Assembly (NCBI GenBank): GCA_024278985.1
Contig: JAJRSC010000027.1
Location: forward strand, 1-35,348
DNA: 35,348 nucleotides
Source: an archaeon
GTDB taxonomy: Archaea; AGJL01; Methanococci; Methanococcales; Methanocaldococcaceae
Direction of reading: 5' to 3'
The translations under genes were made by a program, and so were the position numbers. Each line of letters begins with the position of its first letter. The first letter of the stretch is position 1. Under the pieces are notes generated by a model that ran no database searches, was not told where the DNA came from, and was given only the letters and a program-made list of their open reading frames with translations. Shown here piece after piece: positions 13,294 through 21,686 of the stretch.

Positions 13294-13341
13294 TCTCTCT
13301 ATTTTTATTATAATTTTTCAAAAATTAAATTGTGTTTTAGT

Positions 13342-14586
13342 ATGGTGTATAAGGTATATGTTGAAGGTTATGGATGTGTATTAAATCAGGCAGATACCTT
13401 GATTATAAAAAATTCTCTAAAAAAAGAAGGGTTTATAATAACTGATAATATTGATTATGCAGATATTATAATAATAAACACCTGTATAGTTAGATTAGAA
13501 ACAGAGAACAGGATGCTATTTAGGATTGAGGAACTAAAAAAATTAAATAAAATATTATTTGTTGCTGGATGTATGCCTAAAGGATTAAAAGAGAAAATCA
13601 AGGGTCTTCCTTACATACTTCCAAGAGAAGCACATAATGCTGGAAAAATAGTAAAGGACTACTTAACTAAAAAAAATATTATTCATAAAGAAGATAATCT
13701 TACTCTATTTAATAAATTGTATCTTATTGAGCCTTCTCTAATTACTCCATTACCTATATGTGAAGGATGCTTGGGAGAGTGTAGTTATTGTATTGTAAAG
13801 TTAGCAAGAGGAGATTTAATATCATATCCAAGAGATGTTATAGTTGAAAGGGCAAAATATCTCATTGAAAGAGGAACAAAATGCTTATTTATAACAGCTC
13901 AAGATACAGCATGTTATGGATTTGATAGAGGAGATAATTTAGCCAATTTATTAAGGGATTTATGTGAGATTGAAGGAGATTTTATAATGAGAATTGGAAT
14001 GATGCATCCCAAATCTTTGGAGAGAATTATAGATGATGTTATTGAAGTTTATAAAGAGGATAAAATAGGTAAGTTCTTACATCTACCACTACAGAGTGGT
14101 AGTGATAAAATATTAAAATTAATGAAAAGGGGCTATACAGTTGATGAATATATAAGTCTTGTAAAAGAATTTAGAAAAAAAATAAAAAATTTATGTTATG
14201 TTACTGATATTATTGTTGGATTTCCTGGAGAAGAAGAGGAAGATTTTGAAGAAACTTTAAATATCTTGAAAAAACTTAAACCAGATTATATACATGCTGC
14301 AAAATATACAGTAAGAAAGGGAACCTTAGCCAGCAAAATGAAACAGATAGATAGTAAGATAAAAAAGAATAGAAGTAGGATTTTAGATAAATTAAGGAGA
14401 GAATTAAGTTATTTATCAAATAAAAAATATGTTGGAAAAACATTAAGGGCTCTTATTGTTGATAAAAATAAAGGATATACTGAAAACTTTAAGGTTGTAA
14501 AAGTTGATTGTGAAGATATAGGAAAGTTTATAAATGTTAAAATAACTGAGGCTAAAACCTTTGGTTTAAAAGGAGAGAAACTGTAA
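13342..14586 (+). CDS. tRNA t6A37 methylthiotransferase (CDKAL1/MtaB type)
   Basis: Radical SAM enzyme expected to convert t6A37 to ms2t6A37 in ANN-decoding tRNAs. The UPF0004 domain (about 1-110) has its three cluster cysteines in EGYGCVLNQADT, NTCIVRLETE and VAGCMP. The radical SAM core has the CxxxCxxC motif in CLGECSYCIVKLARG near residues 145-160, then ITAQDTACYGFDRG, LPLQSGSDKILKLMKRGY, and DIIVGFPGEEEEDFEETL. A TRAM-like RNA-binding end follows (GKTLRALIVDKNKGYTENF). The GYGCVLNQAD form is that of the archaeal/eukaryotic subgroup rather than bacterial MiaB. TTG 13330 is in frame; ATG 13342 gives the usual short N-terminus. Confidence 0.92.
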   Translation: MVYKVYVEGYGCVLNQADTLIIKNSLKKEGFIITDNIDYADIIIINTCIVRLETENRMLFRIEELKKLNKILFVAGCMPKGLKEKIKGLPYILPREAHNAGKIVKDYLTKKNIIHKEDNLTLFNKLYLIEPSLITPLPICEGCLGECSYCIVKLARGDLISYPRDVIVERAKYLIERGTKCLFITAQDTACYGFDRGDNLANLLRDLCEIEGDFIMRIGMMHPKSLERIIDDVIEVYKEDKIGKFLHLPLQSGSDKILKLMKRGYTVDEYISLVKEFRKKIKNLCYVTDIIVGFPGEEEEDFEETLNILKKLKPDYIHAAKYTVRKGTLASKMKQIDSKIKKNRSRILDKLRRELSYLSNKKYVGKTLRALIVDKNKGYTENFKVVKVDCEDIGKFINVKITEAKTFGLKGEKL

Positions 14587-15139: not shown

Positions 15140-16462
15140 TTACCTTTTAATCAACACATCCCTATATTTATATAATAATTCAGTTATAGCTCTTATATCT
15201 TTTCCCTGCATCTTTGCTTCATTTAAATATAAATTATATAGTTGAGGAGTTAAGGGTTTTGGTATGCTTTTCCATAACTCAGAGTGAATTAACAAATCAA
15301 AACATCTCGCCTCTGCCTCACTCAATCCAAGGTTTTTATATGCTCCATAATGAGTTTTATATAATAAATTTTCTTCTTTAGGCATAGATAAAACTAAATC
15401 ACACATTTCTGTTGTTGGGATTGGCTCAGCAATTGAAACAAAAACATCATCTAATTCTGCATCTACAATAAAATCTTTAGTTAATAGATAATCCATTTCT
15501 GTCTCTGTTGGATATGCAACTATAAAACTTCCTGCTACTTTAACACCACAATCTTTTGCTAATTTTATTGCATCTAAATTTTTTTCTCTATTGGTCCCTT
15601 TTTTCATATCTTTCAGAATTTTATTACTTCCACTTTCTATTCCATAAAACACCCATCCAATAGTATAATTTTTTATAGCCTCTAATATATCCTCATCAAC
15701 ATAATCAACTCTCATATCTGGAACTGATAAATTTTTTTTACCAACAATTTCAGATATTTTTTCCAAAAGTTCAAAAAACTTACTTCTATTAACTGATTTT
15801 TTAAAAGCATATAAACTTCCAGTTCCACCACTTATTGCTATTCTCTTAGCTCCAGCTCTTTTAAATGCTTTAACTTCTTCAACAACATCCTCAACATCTC
15901 TACTCCTAATATTCTTTCCAAAAAACTTTGGAACTTGGCAAAAAGTGCAATTTCCTAAACATCCTCTATGTGTTTCAATATAAACATTAGCCCCTCTAAT
16001 AGATTGTTGCCCTATATCTCTTGGTATTAGTGGGAGAGGATGATTTAAGTCTGGTTTTTCTTTTGGGTAATTTATTACTATTTCATCACCTTCTTTATAT
16101 GCTAAGCCCTCCTTATTACCTTCTATAATTTTTGGAGTTATTATTTCTCCTTCTCCAACTATAACCCCATCTACATTTAGCTCATTTAAAATAATTTCTG
16201 GATATGATGAAACACATCCAGCGATATAAACTTTAGTTTTATTTTTTCTTACTTTTTTTATAAAATTTATAGCCTCTCTAATGTTTTTATTTAATATGTG
16301 TAAAGTTGAATATAAGCTAAAAATAACAACATCTGACTTTAAAAATAGTGTTTTATCTATTTTTCTAATTAAATATACATTATAACCTTTATTTTTTAAA
16401 ATTCCACCAATGAGCATAGACCCATATGTATAAACATCTGGACTGTAAATTGTAATTCTCAT
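15140..16462 (-). CDS. B12-binding-domain radical SAM protein
   Basis: The N-terminal part (about 1-140) looks like a cobalamin-binding Rossmann domain (MRITIYSPDVYTYGSMLIGG, VVIFSLYSTLHILN, VYIAGCVSSYPE, GVIVGEGE), but the DxHxxG cobalamin motif is not evident. The radical SAM core follows with CxxxCxxC in HRGCLGNCTFCQVPKFFG (near residue 170), ISGGTGSLYAF, GIESGSNKILKDMKKGT and GSFIVAYPTETEMDYL. A C-terminal extension of about 80 residues is rich in SEAEARCFDLL-like helices. From memory this matches the family named after MJ_0865. Some relatives of this class methylate McrA residues, but that function is only a possibility here. ATG 16462 follows AAAGGGATGA. Confidence 0.8.
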   Translation of the reverse strand: MRITIYSPDVYTYGSMLIGGILKNKGYNVYLIRKIDKTLFLKSDVVIFSLYSTLHILNKNIREAINFIKKVRKNKTKVYIAGCVSSYPEIILNELNVDGVIVGEGEIITPKIIEGNKEGLAYKEGDEIVINYPKEKPDLNHPLPLIPRDIGQQSIRGANVYIETHRGCLGNCTFCQVPKFFGKNIRSRDVEDVVEEVKAFKRAGAKRIAISGGTGSLYAFKKSVNRSKFFELLEKISEIVGKKNLSVPDMRVDYVDEDILEAIKNYTIGWVFYGIESGSNKILKDMKKGTNREKNLDAIKLAKDCGVKVAGSFIVAYPTETEMDYLLTKDFIVDAELDDVFVSIAEPIPTTEMCDLVLSMPKEENLLYKTHYGAYKNLGLSEAEARCFDLLIHSELWKSIPKPLTPQLYNLYLNEAKMQGKDIRAITELLYKYRDVLIKR

Positions 16463-17724: not shown

Positions 17725-18699
17725 TTAATCTTTTTTTAGTATAATAGTAAGTTCATTTTTAGTATTTGCCGGTAATTTAACAATATCAAGGATTTTTATA
17801 TTTTTATCTTTTATAATATTAATAACTTTATTTAAATCTTCTTTTTTTGTTTTTTGACTTCTTGCCTTTAGAGTATGGATAATATATTTTCCATCTTTAA
17901 GGTTATCAAAAAATTTTAAGGTTAATAGAATAGATTCCTCTGGGTAGAGATTGGTGTCATTAGTTATTAAATCTAATTTATCATCTATATTGACATTTTC
18001 AGCTCTATCTTTAATATGAATAATATTTTCAGAGGATATTTTAAGCTCTCCTTTATCAATAGCATAAACCTTTTTTGCCAATCTACTTAAATGTTTAATC
18101 CAACCACCAGGAGCTGAACCAATATCTAAAACTGTCTCCAAGTTATTAAAAATATAAGGATATTTTTCAATTAATTCTATAATTTTTCTTTCAGCTCTGT
18201 TAAGGGGTCTTATACTATATTTTTTTAAATCATTTAAAGCTTTAATATTATCAATAAATTTTATTTCATTAAAATCTTTTGTAAAAATAGATATATAGGC
18301 AATATCTTGTAAGATTTCAATATTAACCCTAAAATCATAATTTTTTAAATCAACTTTAAAATTATATTTTTCCACTATTAATTTTCCTATTTTTTTTTCA
18401 ATATCTTCACTTGTAAAGTTATGGTTTCCTCTTCTCCAGCATCTTACTACAAATTTTCCATTAACTTTTTTATTATTTATAAGTTTTATTATATTTTCTT
18501 CCATATCCTCCAATTTACATATAATTTCAACAGGAATTAATCTACAAATATATTTTGATTTGATATTATCAATATTTCCCTCTATATATAATAACCCTCT
18601 GAATGGTGTATATTTAACTTTTAAATTACATTCCTCTAATTCCTTTTTTAATTCACTTTCAAATCCTGGTTTTGTTGTTACTAATGCTTTTTTTATCAT
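17725..18699 (-). CDS. THUMP-domain FtsJ-like RNA 2'-O-methyltransferase
   Basis: Two-part RNA methyltransferase of 324 residues. The first half (about 1-150) resembles a THUMP RNA-binding module, with GFESELKKELEE and the RCWRRGNHNFTSEDIEKKIG block. The second half is a Rossmann SAM-binding fold with DIGSAPGGWIKHL (near 195-207). The K-D-K-E tetrad of RrmJ-type 2'-O-methyltransferases can be placed: Lys in NRAERKIIEL, Asp in LITNDTNLYP, Lys in HTLKARSQ and Glu in NTKNELTIIL. This points to ribose methylation of RNA, but the target is unknown. Its ATG overlaps the stop of the hydrogenase protease gene as ATGA, so the two are translationally coupled. Confidence 0.8.
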   Translation of the reverse strand: MIKKALVTTKPGFESELKKELEECNLKVKYTPFRGLLYIEGNIDNIKSKYICRLIPVEIICKLEDMEENIIKLINNKKVNGKFVVRCWRRGNHNFTSEDIEKKIGKLIVEKYNFKVDLKNYDFRVNIEILQDIAYISIFTKDFNEIKFIDNIKALNDLKKYSIRPLNRAERKIIELIEKYPYIFNNLETVLDIGSAPGGWIKHLSRLAKKVYAIDKGELKISSENIIHIKDRAENVNIDDKLDLITNDTNLYPEESILLTLKFFDNLKDGKYIIHTLKARSQKTKKEDLNKVINIIKDKNIKILDIVKLPANTKNELTIILKKD

Positions 18700-19163
18700 T
18701 CTTTCACTAATTTTATAATTTCATTAATTAACCTATCTCCAGCATTTTTAACTTCTTCACTCATATCACAAAAATCTATAATTTTTGGCTGAATTCCAAT
18801 AATTACAAACTTAGAATTTATAAAATTTTTAAGATACTTTATTATAACAGTTATTGGAATTGCATGAGATGAAAAAGAATAGTTTTTAATATCTTTTTCT
18901 CTAATGAAACATATTTCTCCTGGTCTCTTGTTCATTATAGCACAATCTATAATAACCACATATTCTGGATTTATCTTTTTAATGATATCTGTAAATGCCT
19001 CTGGGCAAGTTTTAGCATTTATAAAATAATATTTTCCAATGTTGGTTTTATTAAAGTAGTTTATAACATTCTCAATAATATAAACCCCTACTTTATCATC
19101 ACCCCTAAGTTCATTCCCAATTCCTAAAAAAATAACCTTTTTATTTTTTAAAAAAGATAAAAT
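18696..19163 (-). CDS. hydrogenase maturation protease (HycI/HybD type), ATT start
   Basis: Endopeptidase that clips the large subunit of a [NiFe] hydrogenase after nickel insertion. The part after GTG 18959 holds only the C-terminal half; the frame is open upstream and completes the M52 family pattern: VIFLGIGNELRGDDKVGVYI (nickel-binding Glu), then VVIIDCAIMNKRPGE (Asp) and FSSHAIPITVI (His). No ATG, GTG or TTG is in frame between the upstream stop at 19212-19214 and 18959. ATT 19163 lies four bases after a good GGTGA (19168-19172), the same spacing as used by other genes here, so it is the probable start, giving 155 residues. The gene is coupled to the downstream methyltransferase by an ATGA overlap and is divergent from a ferredoxin gene. 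Confidence 0.85.
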   Translation of the reverse strand: MLSFLKNKKVIFLGIGNELRGDDKVGVYIIENVINYFNKTNIGKYYFINAKTCPEAFTDIIKKINPEYVVIIDCAIMNKRPGEICFIREKDIKNYSFSSHAIPITVIIKYLKNFINSKFVIIGIQPKIIDFCDMSEEVKNAGDRLINEIIKLVKE

Positions 19164-19194
19164 ATTATCACCTAAATAATTATTTTGGGATAGT

Positions 19195-19710: not shown

Positions 19711-19972
19711 ATATTTAAAAATGACTGAAGAAGCTATAAAAATAATTAAAAAAGGTCTTCCTCCAAAAAGAAGTATATTATATCTTGTTGCAGAAGATTT
19801 TTTATTAATGATTGAGAGCTATTATAAAGATGCTTTAAGTTTTAAAGAAAAGGGAGATTATGTTAATGCATTTGCAGCTTTAAATTATGCTTATGGATGG
19901 ATAGATGCAGGAGTTAGATTAGGTTTATTTAATGTTGGAGATGATGATAAAAGATTCACATTATATAAATAG
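19679..19972 (+). CDS. DUF357 protein
   Basis: 97-residue helical protein recognised as DUF357, a small archaeal family of unknown function. The conserved part is [45 protein letters not shown] (split here: [41 protein letters not shown]), which forms a helical bundle with a TPR-like hairpin. ATG 19679 follows GAGGTTG and overlaps the ferredoxin gene by 32 bases, so the two are probably made together. The stop codon (19970-19972) directly abuts the 3' end of the oppositely oriented tRNA-Leu. Confidence 0.85.
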
Positions 19973-20057
19973 TGCGGGGGACGGGATTTGAACCCGCGAA
20001 CCCCTGCGGGACTGGACCCTCAATCCAGCGCCTTTGGCCAGGCTTGGCGACCCCCGC
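19973..20057 (-). tRNA. tRNA-Leu(GAG)
   Basis: Minus-strand class II tRNA of 85 bases. Acceptor GCGGGGG pairs with CCCCCGC, discriminator A. The anticodon arm CTGGA-TTGAGGG-TCCAG gives anticodon GAG (reads CUC and CUU). A long variable arm with CCGCAGGGG and a T arm GCGGG-TTCAAAT-CCCGT follow. CCA is not encoded. Its high GC content against the AT-rich background is normal for a hyperthermophile. Confidence 0.97.
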
Positions 20058-20085
20058 ACATAAAGTAGTTATTCTTACCCAAGGT

Positions 20086-20098
20086 TTATATAATATAA
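20086..20098 (-). promoter_or_regulatory. putative TATA box of tRNA-Leu
   Basis: On the minus strand TATTATATAAACC is centred about 35 bases before the tRNA 5' end, fitting a transcription start 8-10 bases upstream of the mature tRNA. On the plus strand the same bases (GGTTTATATAAT) could also serve the FIST gene. Confidence 0.5.
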
Positions 20099-20100
20099 TA

Positions 20101-20130
20101 AGTAAGAGTTATATATACATTACTCTTACT
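20101..20130 (+). promoter_or_regulatory. perfect 9-base inverted repeat framing a TATA box
   Basis: AGTAAGAGT (20101-20109) and ACTCTTACT (20122-20130) are exact inverted copies separated by 12 bases, TATATATACATT. The TATA-like centre would place transcription start near 20140, about 20 bases before ATG 20160. A dimeric regulator bound here would block TBP, so this looks like an operator for the FIST-winged-helix gene. An RNA hairpin is possible only if a promoter further up (20086-20098) is used. Confidence 0.55.
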
Positions 20131-20159
20131 CTAAAAAAATATTTAAATATGTGGTAAAT

Positions 20160-21686
20160 ATGAATACTGGCACATATCTTTTAGAGAATATCGAAGATTT
20201 CTATGCCACAGGAAAACATATTGGAAAAGAAATATTAAAAAGTTATGGTAAAACAAGTTTGGTATTAGTAGCTACTACAGTATTAGATAAGGATAAAGTT
20301 CAAGAATTTTTAAATGGACTTTCAACCAAAATTGATAGTGATTATATTATTGGTTATTCAACAGGTGGATTTTATTATAATTCTAAGTTATATACTGAAA
20401 ATAGTATAATGGTTTTTGCATTTGAAAATATATACAGATTTGTCCCAGTATTTGAGAAAATAGAAACTCCTGAAGATGGTTACAAAATAGCAAATGATGT
20501 TATTGAAAAAATTAAGCTAAAATATGGATGTATATCCATGAAAAATAAATTTTTAGGGTTAGCTTTTTTTGATTTTAGTGTATGGAGAATGATAGATAAA
20601 ATAATTAAAAATATAAGAAAAGATTTACCAATTCCAATAATTGGAAATATTGCATCAGATAATAAGACATATAAAGATACATTTTTAATTTATAATGGGG
20701 ATATTGTTAAAGATGGATGTGTATTTACTTTAATTATGGGTAAATTAAAATATAAACTCATATATTTTAATCCATATAAGCCTACAGAACTATATGCTAA
20801 AATAACAAAATCTGAGGGAAATATTATATATGAACTTAATAATAAACCTGCATATCAAGAATATTTAAGATTAATCTCAAAACATACAGGATTATCAATT
20901 ATTGATATAGAACAGTATTTTAATAAACATCTAAATACTTTAGATTTTAGAATTACATATCCTTTAGCATATTCTGATGTATATGGGAATTTAATTAATT
21001 TATATATATATAGAGTAAAAAATGATGCATTATATGTTAATTCAGAAATTCCAGAAGGTACTTTTTTAACATTAATGGAAACAAATCCAAACTACATTAT
21101 GGAATGTTGTGAAGCATTTAGAAAAATTAGAAGTAAATTTAAAAATTCATTAGCTATTATAAATCAATGCTATGCTTTAGAAATTATAAAGAATCCAGAT
21201 TTTAGAACTGAAAAATCACATCCATTTTTAGAGATGTTATTTAATCAGAGAATTGTTCCATGTGATGAAAAATATTTATTTATTAATTTGTCTTATGGAG
21301 AATGTGTTGCTAAAGGATTATCTACAATTTTTAGCCCATTATCATATTCAGGAGTAGTATTAGAATTAGACGCTTTAAAAAATATTAAAGATTATTTAAT
21401 TGAAGGTTTTGAATTTAATAAAGAAGAAGCAGAAATAATTCCATTTTTAATTGATAACATTGCAACCATTGAAGAAATATCTAATAAATTACATATTCCT
21501 CTAGAAAAAGTTAAAACATATCTTGATAAGTTTGTAAGCCTTAATATTGTACAAAAACTAGATGATAAATATTATGTAGATACCTCAATATTAGAAAAAT
21601 CTTTAATGGAGCTTCACAAAAAGCTTAAAATGGATGAAGACAGAAAAAGAAATTTAAGATTAAAATTAATTAATATTTTAAGTTAA
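20160..21686 (+). CDS. FIST sensor-domain protein with C-terminal winged helix
   Basis: 508-residue soluble protein. Residues about 20-200 match the FIST N domain (LVLVATTVLDKDKVQEFL, IIGYSTGGFYYN, FLGLAFFDFSVWRM, PIIGNIASDN) and about 205-365 the FIST C domain (KLIYFNPYKPTELYAKITKS, TFLTLMETNPNYIMECCEAF, SLAIINQCYALEI), a predicted small-ligand sensor. From about 420 a winged helix-turn-helix follows (EEAEIIPFLIDNIATIEEIS, KLHIPLEKVKTYLDKF, LNIVQKLDDKYYVD), then a basic helical tail. FIST proteins are usually tied to signalling domains; a fused DNA-binding end would make it a one-component regulator. There is no signal peptide or membrane segment. GTG 20151 is in frame, but GTGGT precedes ATG 20160. 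The gene overlaps the end of elp3 by nine bases. Confidence 0.75.
   Translation: MNTGTYLLENIEDFYATGKHIGKEILKSYGKTSLVLVATTVLDKDKVQEFLNGLSTKIDSDYIIGYSTGGFYYNSKLYTENSIMVFAFENIYRFVPVFEKIETPEDGYKIANDVIEKIKLKYGCISMKNKFLGLAFFDFSVWRMIDKIIKNIRKDLPIPIIGNIASDNKTYKDTFLIYNGDIVKDGCVFTLIMGKLKYKLIYFNPYKPTELYAKITKSEGNIIYELNNKPAYQEYLRLISKHTGLSIIDIEQYFNKHLNTLDFRITYPLAYSDVYGNLINLYIYRVKNDALYVNSEIPEGTFLTLMETNPNYIMECCEAFRKIRSKFKNSLAIINQCYALEIIKNPDFRTEKSHPFLEMLFNQRIVPCDEKYLFINLSYGECVAKGLSTIFSPLSYSGVVLELDALKNIKDYLIEGFEFNKEEAEIIPFLIDNIATIEEISNKLHIPLEKVKTYLDKFVSLNIVQKLDDKYYVDTSILEKSLMELHKKLKMDEDRKRNLRLKLINILS

Follow-up and report, generated by a model that had tools for sequence, protein, structure and literature searches.

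A FIST sensor fused to a C-terminal winged helix in Methanococcales and an inverted repeat on its promoter as a candidate operator

Introduction

The question raised by this locus is whether a FIST protein that ends in a winged helix acts as a one-component transcription regulator, and whether an inverted repeat in front of its gene serves as its operator. FIST domains are predicted small-ligand sensors, best known for feeding into kinases and other signalling modules; the domain was reportedly defined in a paper of 2007. To our knowledge, few regulators are known for the sensing of metabolic state in these archaea. The locus lies on a contig of a member of the Methanocaldococcaceae (JAJRSC010000027.1), and the whole stretch of 35,348 nucleotides that was analysed is referred to here as the window. 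An initial annotation of the window had proposed a one-component, possibly self-regulating repressor.

Domain architecture of the protein

The open reading frame at 20160..21686 on the + strand encodes 508 aa from its ATG, or 511 aa from an alternative GTG at 20151. The following features were assigned to the gene:

20160..21686, + strand: FIST-winged-helix protein (508 aa, alternative GTG start at 20151)
20259..20846, + strand: FIST N domain (Pfam PF08495, 3e-22, residues 37-232 of the 511-aa reading)
20931..21176, + strand: FIST C-like part (Pfam PF10442, 20.3 bits, cut-off 28.5, place and order correct)
21384..21623, + strand: predicted winged helix and the helices on either side of it (residues 409-488 of the 508; AlphaFold, TrmB profile, Foldseek match to TrmBL2)
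21639..21680, + strand: C-terminal helix, possible dimerisation helix (AlphaFold models)

The FIST N segment scores above its curated cut-off (79.9 bits vs 23.2), and because the score of the second segment lies under the curated cut-off, the earlier wording of "FIST C style" is a fair one. The FIST part of the protein resembles the human FBXO22 structure 8ua3 (E 1.7e-5). The winged helix, previously placed at about residues 420-485, was confirmed at about 421-473 as a TrmB/MarR-type domain by profile and predicted model. Pfam TrmB is matched by 16 of the 16 aligned family members (best 4.2e-12), and a profile of the family's C-terminal domain matches the solved structures of TrmB (3e-6) and MJ223 (1.1e-5) as well as HlyU and many ArsR/MarR structures. 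Structure prediction of the C-terminus, which the initial annotation had suggested as a check, recovered the winged-helix fold: the AlphaFold models have a pLDDT of 79 for the whole protein and 86 for the C-terminus alone, with 82-96 in the winged helix (mostly 82-94 in the whole-protein model). The predicted order is helix-helix-helix-strand-strand followed by a long helix, with helices at 421-431, 437-444 and 448-460 and wing strands at 465-467 and 470-472, and the Foldseek matches comprise TrmBL2 (5.7e-4), ST1889, AbfR2 and MarR proteins. By analogy with TrmB/MarR folds, a role of the C-terminal helix in dimerisation is possible.

The winged helix of the window copy might instead be degenerate or protein-binding, in a gene that is drifting. 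The protein by itself gives weak HTH matches under the Pfam cut-offs, the net charge of the winged-helix domain is not positive (16 K/R, 16 D/E), and the wing is without the GKPK-type residues found in most relatives. Moreover, the branch of this copy in the tree is long (1.7 changes per column), the copy differs at 44 of the 108 columns that are near invariant among the other relatives, and the gene has decayed in two relatives (G002 and G010) and is thus dispensable there. Against this, the frame is open over 508 codons and the hydrophobic frame and fold are intact in the AlphaFold models, and loss of DNA binding is considered distinctly improbable. Judged from its domains and predicted fold, the FIST-winged-helix protein is very probably a one-component transcription regulator, for which we infer DNA binding, ligand control and dimerisation.

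Distribution of the architecture

The genome set consisted of 36 genomes of the order Methanococcales, and the phylum-level set was identical to those 36. The same FIST and winged-helix architecture is present in 17 copies in 16 of them, carried by Methanocaldococcus, Methanothermococcus and kin. Identity between the window copy and the other members is 29-37%; one of these others, from a draft genome (G034), is interrupted in its N-terminal part. A tree joins the window copy with that of G003, but both are long branches and the grouping is uncertain. A single-sequence search of the genome contigs gave no match.

In 80 FIST loci across bacteria and archaea, the winged-helix profile matched no FIST protein outside the family, and among the best 80 loci of an alignment search, limited by its two peptide patterns, the full architecture was confined to Methanococcales; the FIST tails read by eye stop at FIST C. 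A second FIST and winged-helix family of about 480 aa occurs in Methanococcus, Methanothermococcus and one Methanocaldococcus (L222, L223, L224, L225 and L226; HTH motif around HRRSAYDR/HRRTAYDR). Like the window protein it has FIST N and C followed by a winged helix, but the latter is of another sequence type and is missed by the C-terminal profile of the window family. The FIST-only proteins of the order, of about 420 aa, share FIST N and C with the window protein, but stop at FIST C without a winged helix. One FIST-only protein is also encoded in the window's own genome (C4:43526-44545).

In the literature searched, no paper dealt with FIST regulators of archaea, and the initial annotation likewise knew of no description of such an architecture in archaea. 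With 17 copies in the order, however, the architecture is widespread and therefore unremarked rather than unique. It is a variant made of known parts, common across Methanococcales and apparently unremarked in the literature searched.

The inverted repeat in the shared promoter region

In the intergenic stretch of 102 bp before the gene (20058-20159), the following features were located:

20101..20130, no strand: inverted repeat AGTAAGAGT-TATATATACATT-ACTCTTACT (AGTAAGAGT-N12-ACTCTTACT) with exact 9-bp arms, candidate operator or symmetric BRE-TATA-BRE
20100..20117, + strand: best BRE-TATA match of this strand (AAGTAAGAGTTATATATA), probable promoter core of the FIST gene (3.8% of shuffles reach it)
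20108..20125, - strand: best BRE-TATA match of this strand (GAGTAATGTATATATAAC), possible promoter core of tRNA-Leu (0.5% of shuffles reach it)
20085..20094, no strand: further TATA-like stretch TTTATATAAT, which either gene might use as its TATA instead

The stretch is bounded on its other side by one further gene:

19972..20057, - strand: divergent tRNA-Leu (GAG)

The exact 9-base repeat, first described as about 30 bases before the ATG, has its 3' end 29 nt before it; the central TATATATA run is present as described, but is offset by 2 bp from the exact centre. The start of tRNA-Leu(GAG), a gene that the initial annotation did not mention, is 43 bp from the repeat; since this gene and the FIST gene diverge, the repeat is part of a promoter region common to both. 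Dinucleotide shuffles of the 102-bp stretch produce an exact 9-bp repeat (gap of up to 16) in 6.4% of cases and one with at least three G/C per arm in 0.22%, a value that is somewhat flattering because the three-G/C criterion was picked after the repeat had been seen. It is the sole exact 9-bp repeat with at least three G/C per arm in the 35-kb window. The search for the pair elsewhere in the genome, proposed together with the repressor, revealed no second site within 3 mismatches in 1.1 Mb, and a relaxed repeat core with gaps of 8-18 recovered the repeat itself and nothing else in the same genome. The relaxed motif was therefore rejected as the basis of a regulon: owing to its single occurrence, the repeat is notable, yet defines no regulon. 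A terminator or RNA hairpin was likewise rejected, because an A run instead of a T run comes after the repeat, the likely start is downstream of it and Rfam gives no match; as RNA it would be foldable with -9.8 kcal/mol (z -1.7).

Among the relatives, no comparable repeat was detected in the 16 other family promoters, and order-wide matches with up to three mismatches were no commoner than those of a reversed control pattern. The repeat is thus absent before all relatives, which the initial annotation had named beforehand as refuting its proposal. Both parts of the one-component architecture are borne out by profile and predicted fold; the self-regulating repressor is the more tentative part of the proposal. 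Since the relatives are 29-37% identical and differ from the window protein in recognition helix and wing, the missing repeat weakens the operator and does not refute it. With a single site in the genome and no counterpart in the relatives' promoters, the repeat is a possible operator that conservation does not support. A conserved feature of tRNA-Leu promoters was rejected as its origin, since in the relatives tRNA-Leu has different neighbours and lacks the repeat; only the window genome has tRNA-Leu beside FIST, and only it has the repeat.

Promoter cores were predicted with a BRE-TATA model trained on 27 tRNA-Leu promoters from the genus. The palindrome overlaps the predicted core promoter of the FIST gene, and with the best + strand match on the repeat, the left arm may plausibly be the BRE of this gene. 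As the best matches of both strands (+ 20100-20117 and - 20108-20125) coincide with the repeat, the latter could be a core promoter that works in two directions. The palindrome would then be a symmetric promoter, its TATA-like centre flanked on both sides by a BRE-like element, with transcription running toward tRNA-Leu and toward FIST, while the FIST-winged-helix protein acts elsewhere. The likeness of the left arm GTAAG to the GCGTAAG element that precedes the TATA in the relatives' tRNA-Leu(GAG) promoters, and the private occurrence of both arrangement and repeat, agree with this. The scores on the repeat are low, however (4-8 bits, compared with 19-27 for most training sites), the distance of the - strand match from the tRNA exceeds the norm of the genus by about 20 bp, and a BRE pair requires no 9 identical bases per arm. 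A purely symmetric promoter is regarded as somewhat unlikely.

Gene neighbourhoods in the window and in relatives

In the window, the gene is surrounded by ferredoxin and DUF357 genes, tRNA-Leu and then a convergent radical-SAM/GNAT gene of the Elp3 kind (named from sequence). These neighbours give no hint of the ligand, as initially noted, but the same is not true of the relatives. In three Methanocaldococcus genomes, the gene stands between mtrH and a V4R gene in the order mtrEDCBAFGH - FIST-winged helix - V4R, and a V4R gene follows mtr also in other genomes where the FIST gene no longer stands there. The two decayed copies lie directly before V4R (G002:C1:1048801-1050343, L048; G010:C166, L233), pointing to an older mtr - FIST-winged helix - V4R order and subsequent gene loss. 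In four Methanococcaceae, the order is HmdII - small GTPase - roadblock - FIST-winged helix, where HmdII was identified as TIGR01724 and not as the Hmd enzyme.

Both contexts suggest, but do not prove, the sensing of methanogenic metabolism, and the sensor-type neighbours, V4R behind the gene or GTPase and roadblock ahead of it, also speak for a one-component regulator. The FIST-winged-helix protein could accordingly regulate methanogenesis or its sensing genes (mtr/V4R or HmdII/GTPase/roadblock), the palindrome being the site of another regulator or due to chance. Other contexts exist too, however: the gene adjoins thrC in five Methanocaldococcus genomes and unrelated genes in the window, and the V4R gene of the window's genome stands apart from FIST and mtr. 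Moreover, neighbourhood is no proof of regulation, and this alternative is judged unlikely.

Three further observations were made on the genes of these regions. In a Methanocaldococcus genome (G001), mtrC and mtrB are tandemly doubled inside the mtr operon (L037:11880-13905). In the window, the frame of a HycI hydrogenase maturation protease (18696-19190, - strand) is open to the full N-terminus without an ATG, GTG or TTG there, which could be due to an assembly error or to an unusual start codon preceded by the ribosome-binding site GGTGAT. Additionally, two neighbouring homologous radical-SAM-like proteins of one similarity cluster are encoded on opposite strands (13330-14586 and 15140-16462).

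Proposed mechanism

The preferred reading combines a one-component FIST regulator with autorepression through the palindrome; taken together, and leaning on the first part, it was given a probability of about 0.5. Autorepression on its own is more tentative and falls somewhat short of even odds. In the proposed mechanism, the FIST module would bind a small molecule and alter the seating of the C-terminal TrmB/MarR-type winged helix on DNA. The winged helix would be dimeric, probably via its last helices, and its likeliest DNA site in the window genome would be the palindrome of 30 bp at the promoter of the FIST gene itself. A dimer sitting there would mask BRE and TATA and silence the FIST gene, perhaps together with the divergent tRNA-Leu, much as MsvR acts at its own promoter. 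The data fit a dimer blocking BRE and TATA and the symmetry of a two-way core promoter alike.

A direct FIST-to-DNA regulator across a methanogen order that stands beside mtr and Hmd-related genes in some genomes is a testable candidate for metabolic-state sensing, and these proteins offer a small system in which the FIST ligand might be found by a simple DNA-binding readout. In the widest and speculative form, which we would not expect to hold, the FIST-winged-helix proteins of Methanococcales, beside mtr/V4R and HmdII/GTPase/roadblock, would pass a ligand signal straight to promoters linked to the methanogenic pathway, bypassing kinases and any other signalling step, and the one described here would also control tRNA-Leu via the shared palindrome.

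Comparison with known systems

The closest parallel is MsvR, a methanogen one-component sensor with a winged helix, whose inverted repeat overlaps the BRE/TATA of its own gene and mediates autorepression, for which a dimer blocking BRE/TATA has been proposed (PMC3729527). The sensor of MsvR is a V4R domain, whereas the window protein has FIST and no V4R. The MsvR operator TTCGTAN4TACGAA is conserved between orthologues, and MsvR proteins at only 33% identity keep it (PMC3729527), whereas the repeat of the window is not conserved; an MsvR-type TTCG-N7-9-CGAA motif is absent from 20058-20159. NosP likewise uses FIST as a ligand sensor, but consists of FIST alone, without a DNA-binding domain, and acts via a histidine kinase (PMC12570481); its equivalog model matches the window protein weakly (35.3 bits vs a cut-off of 450). 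TrmB and TrmBL share the type of winged helix with the window protein (profile 3e-6, Foldseek 5.7e-4), but TrmB carries it at the N-terminus (the match covers residues 9-106 of 342) together with another effector domain, whereas in the window protein it lies C-terminal to FIST.
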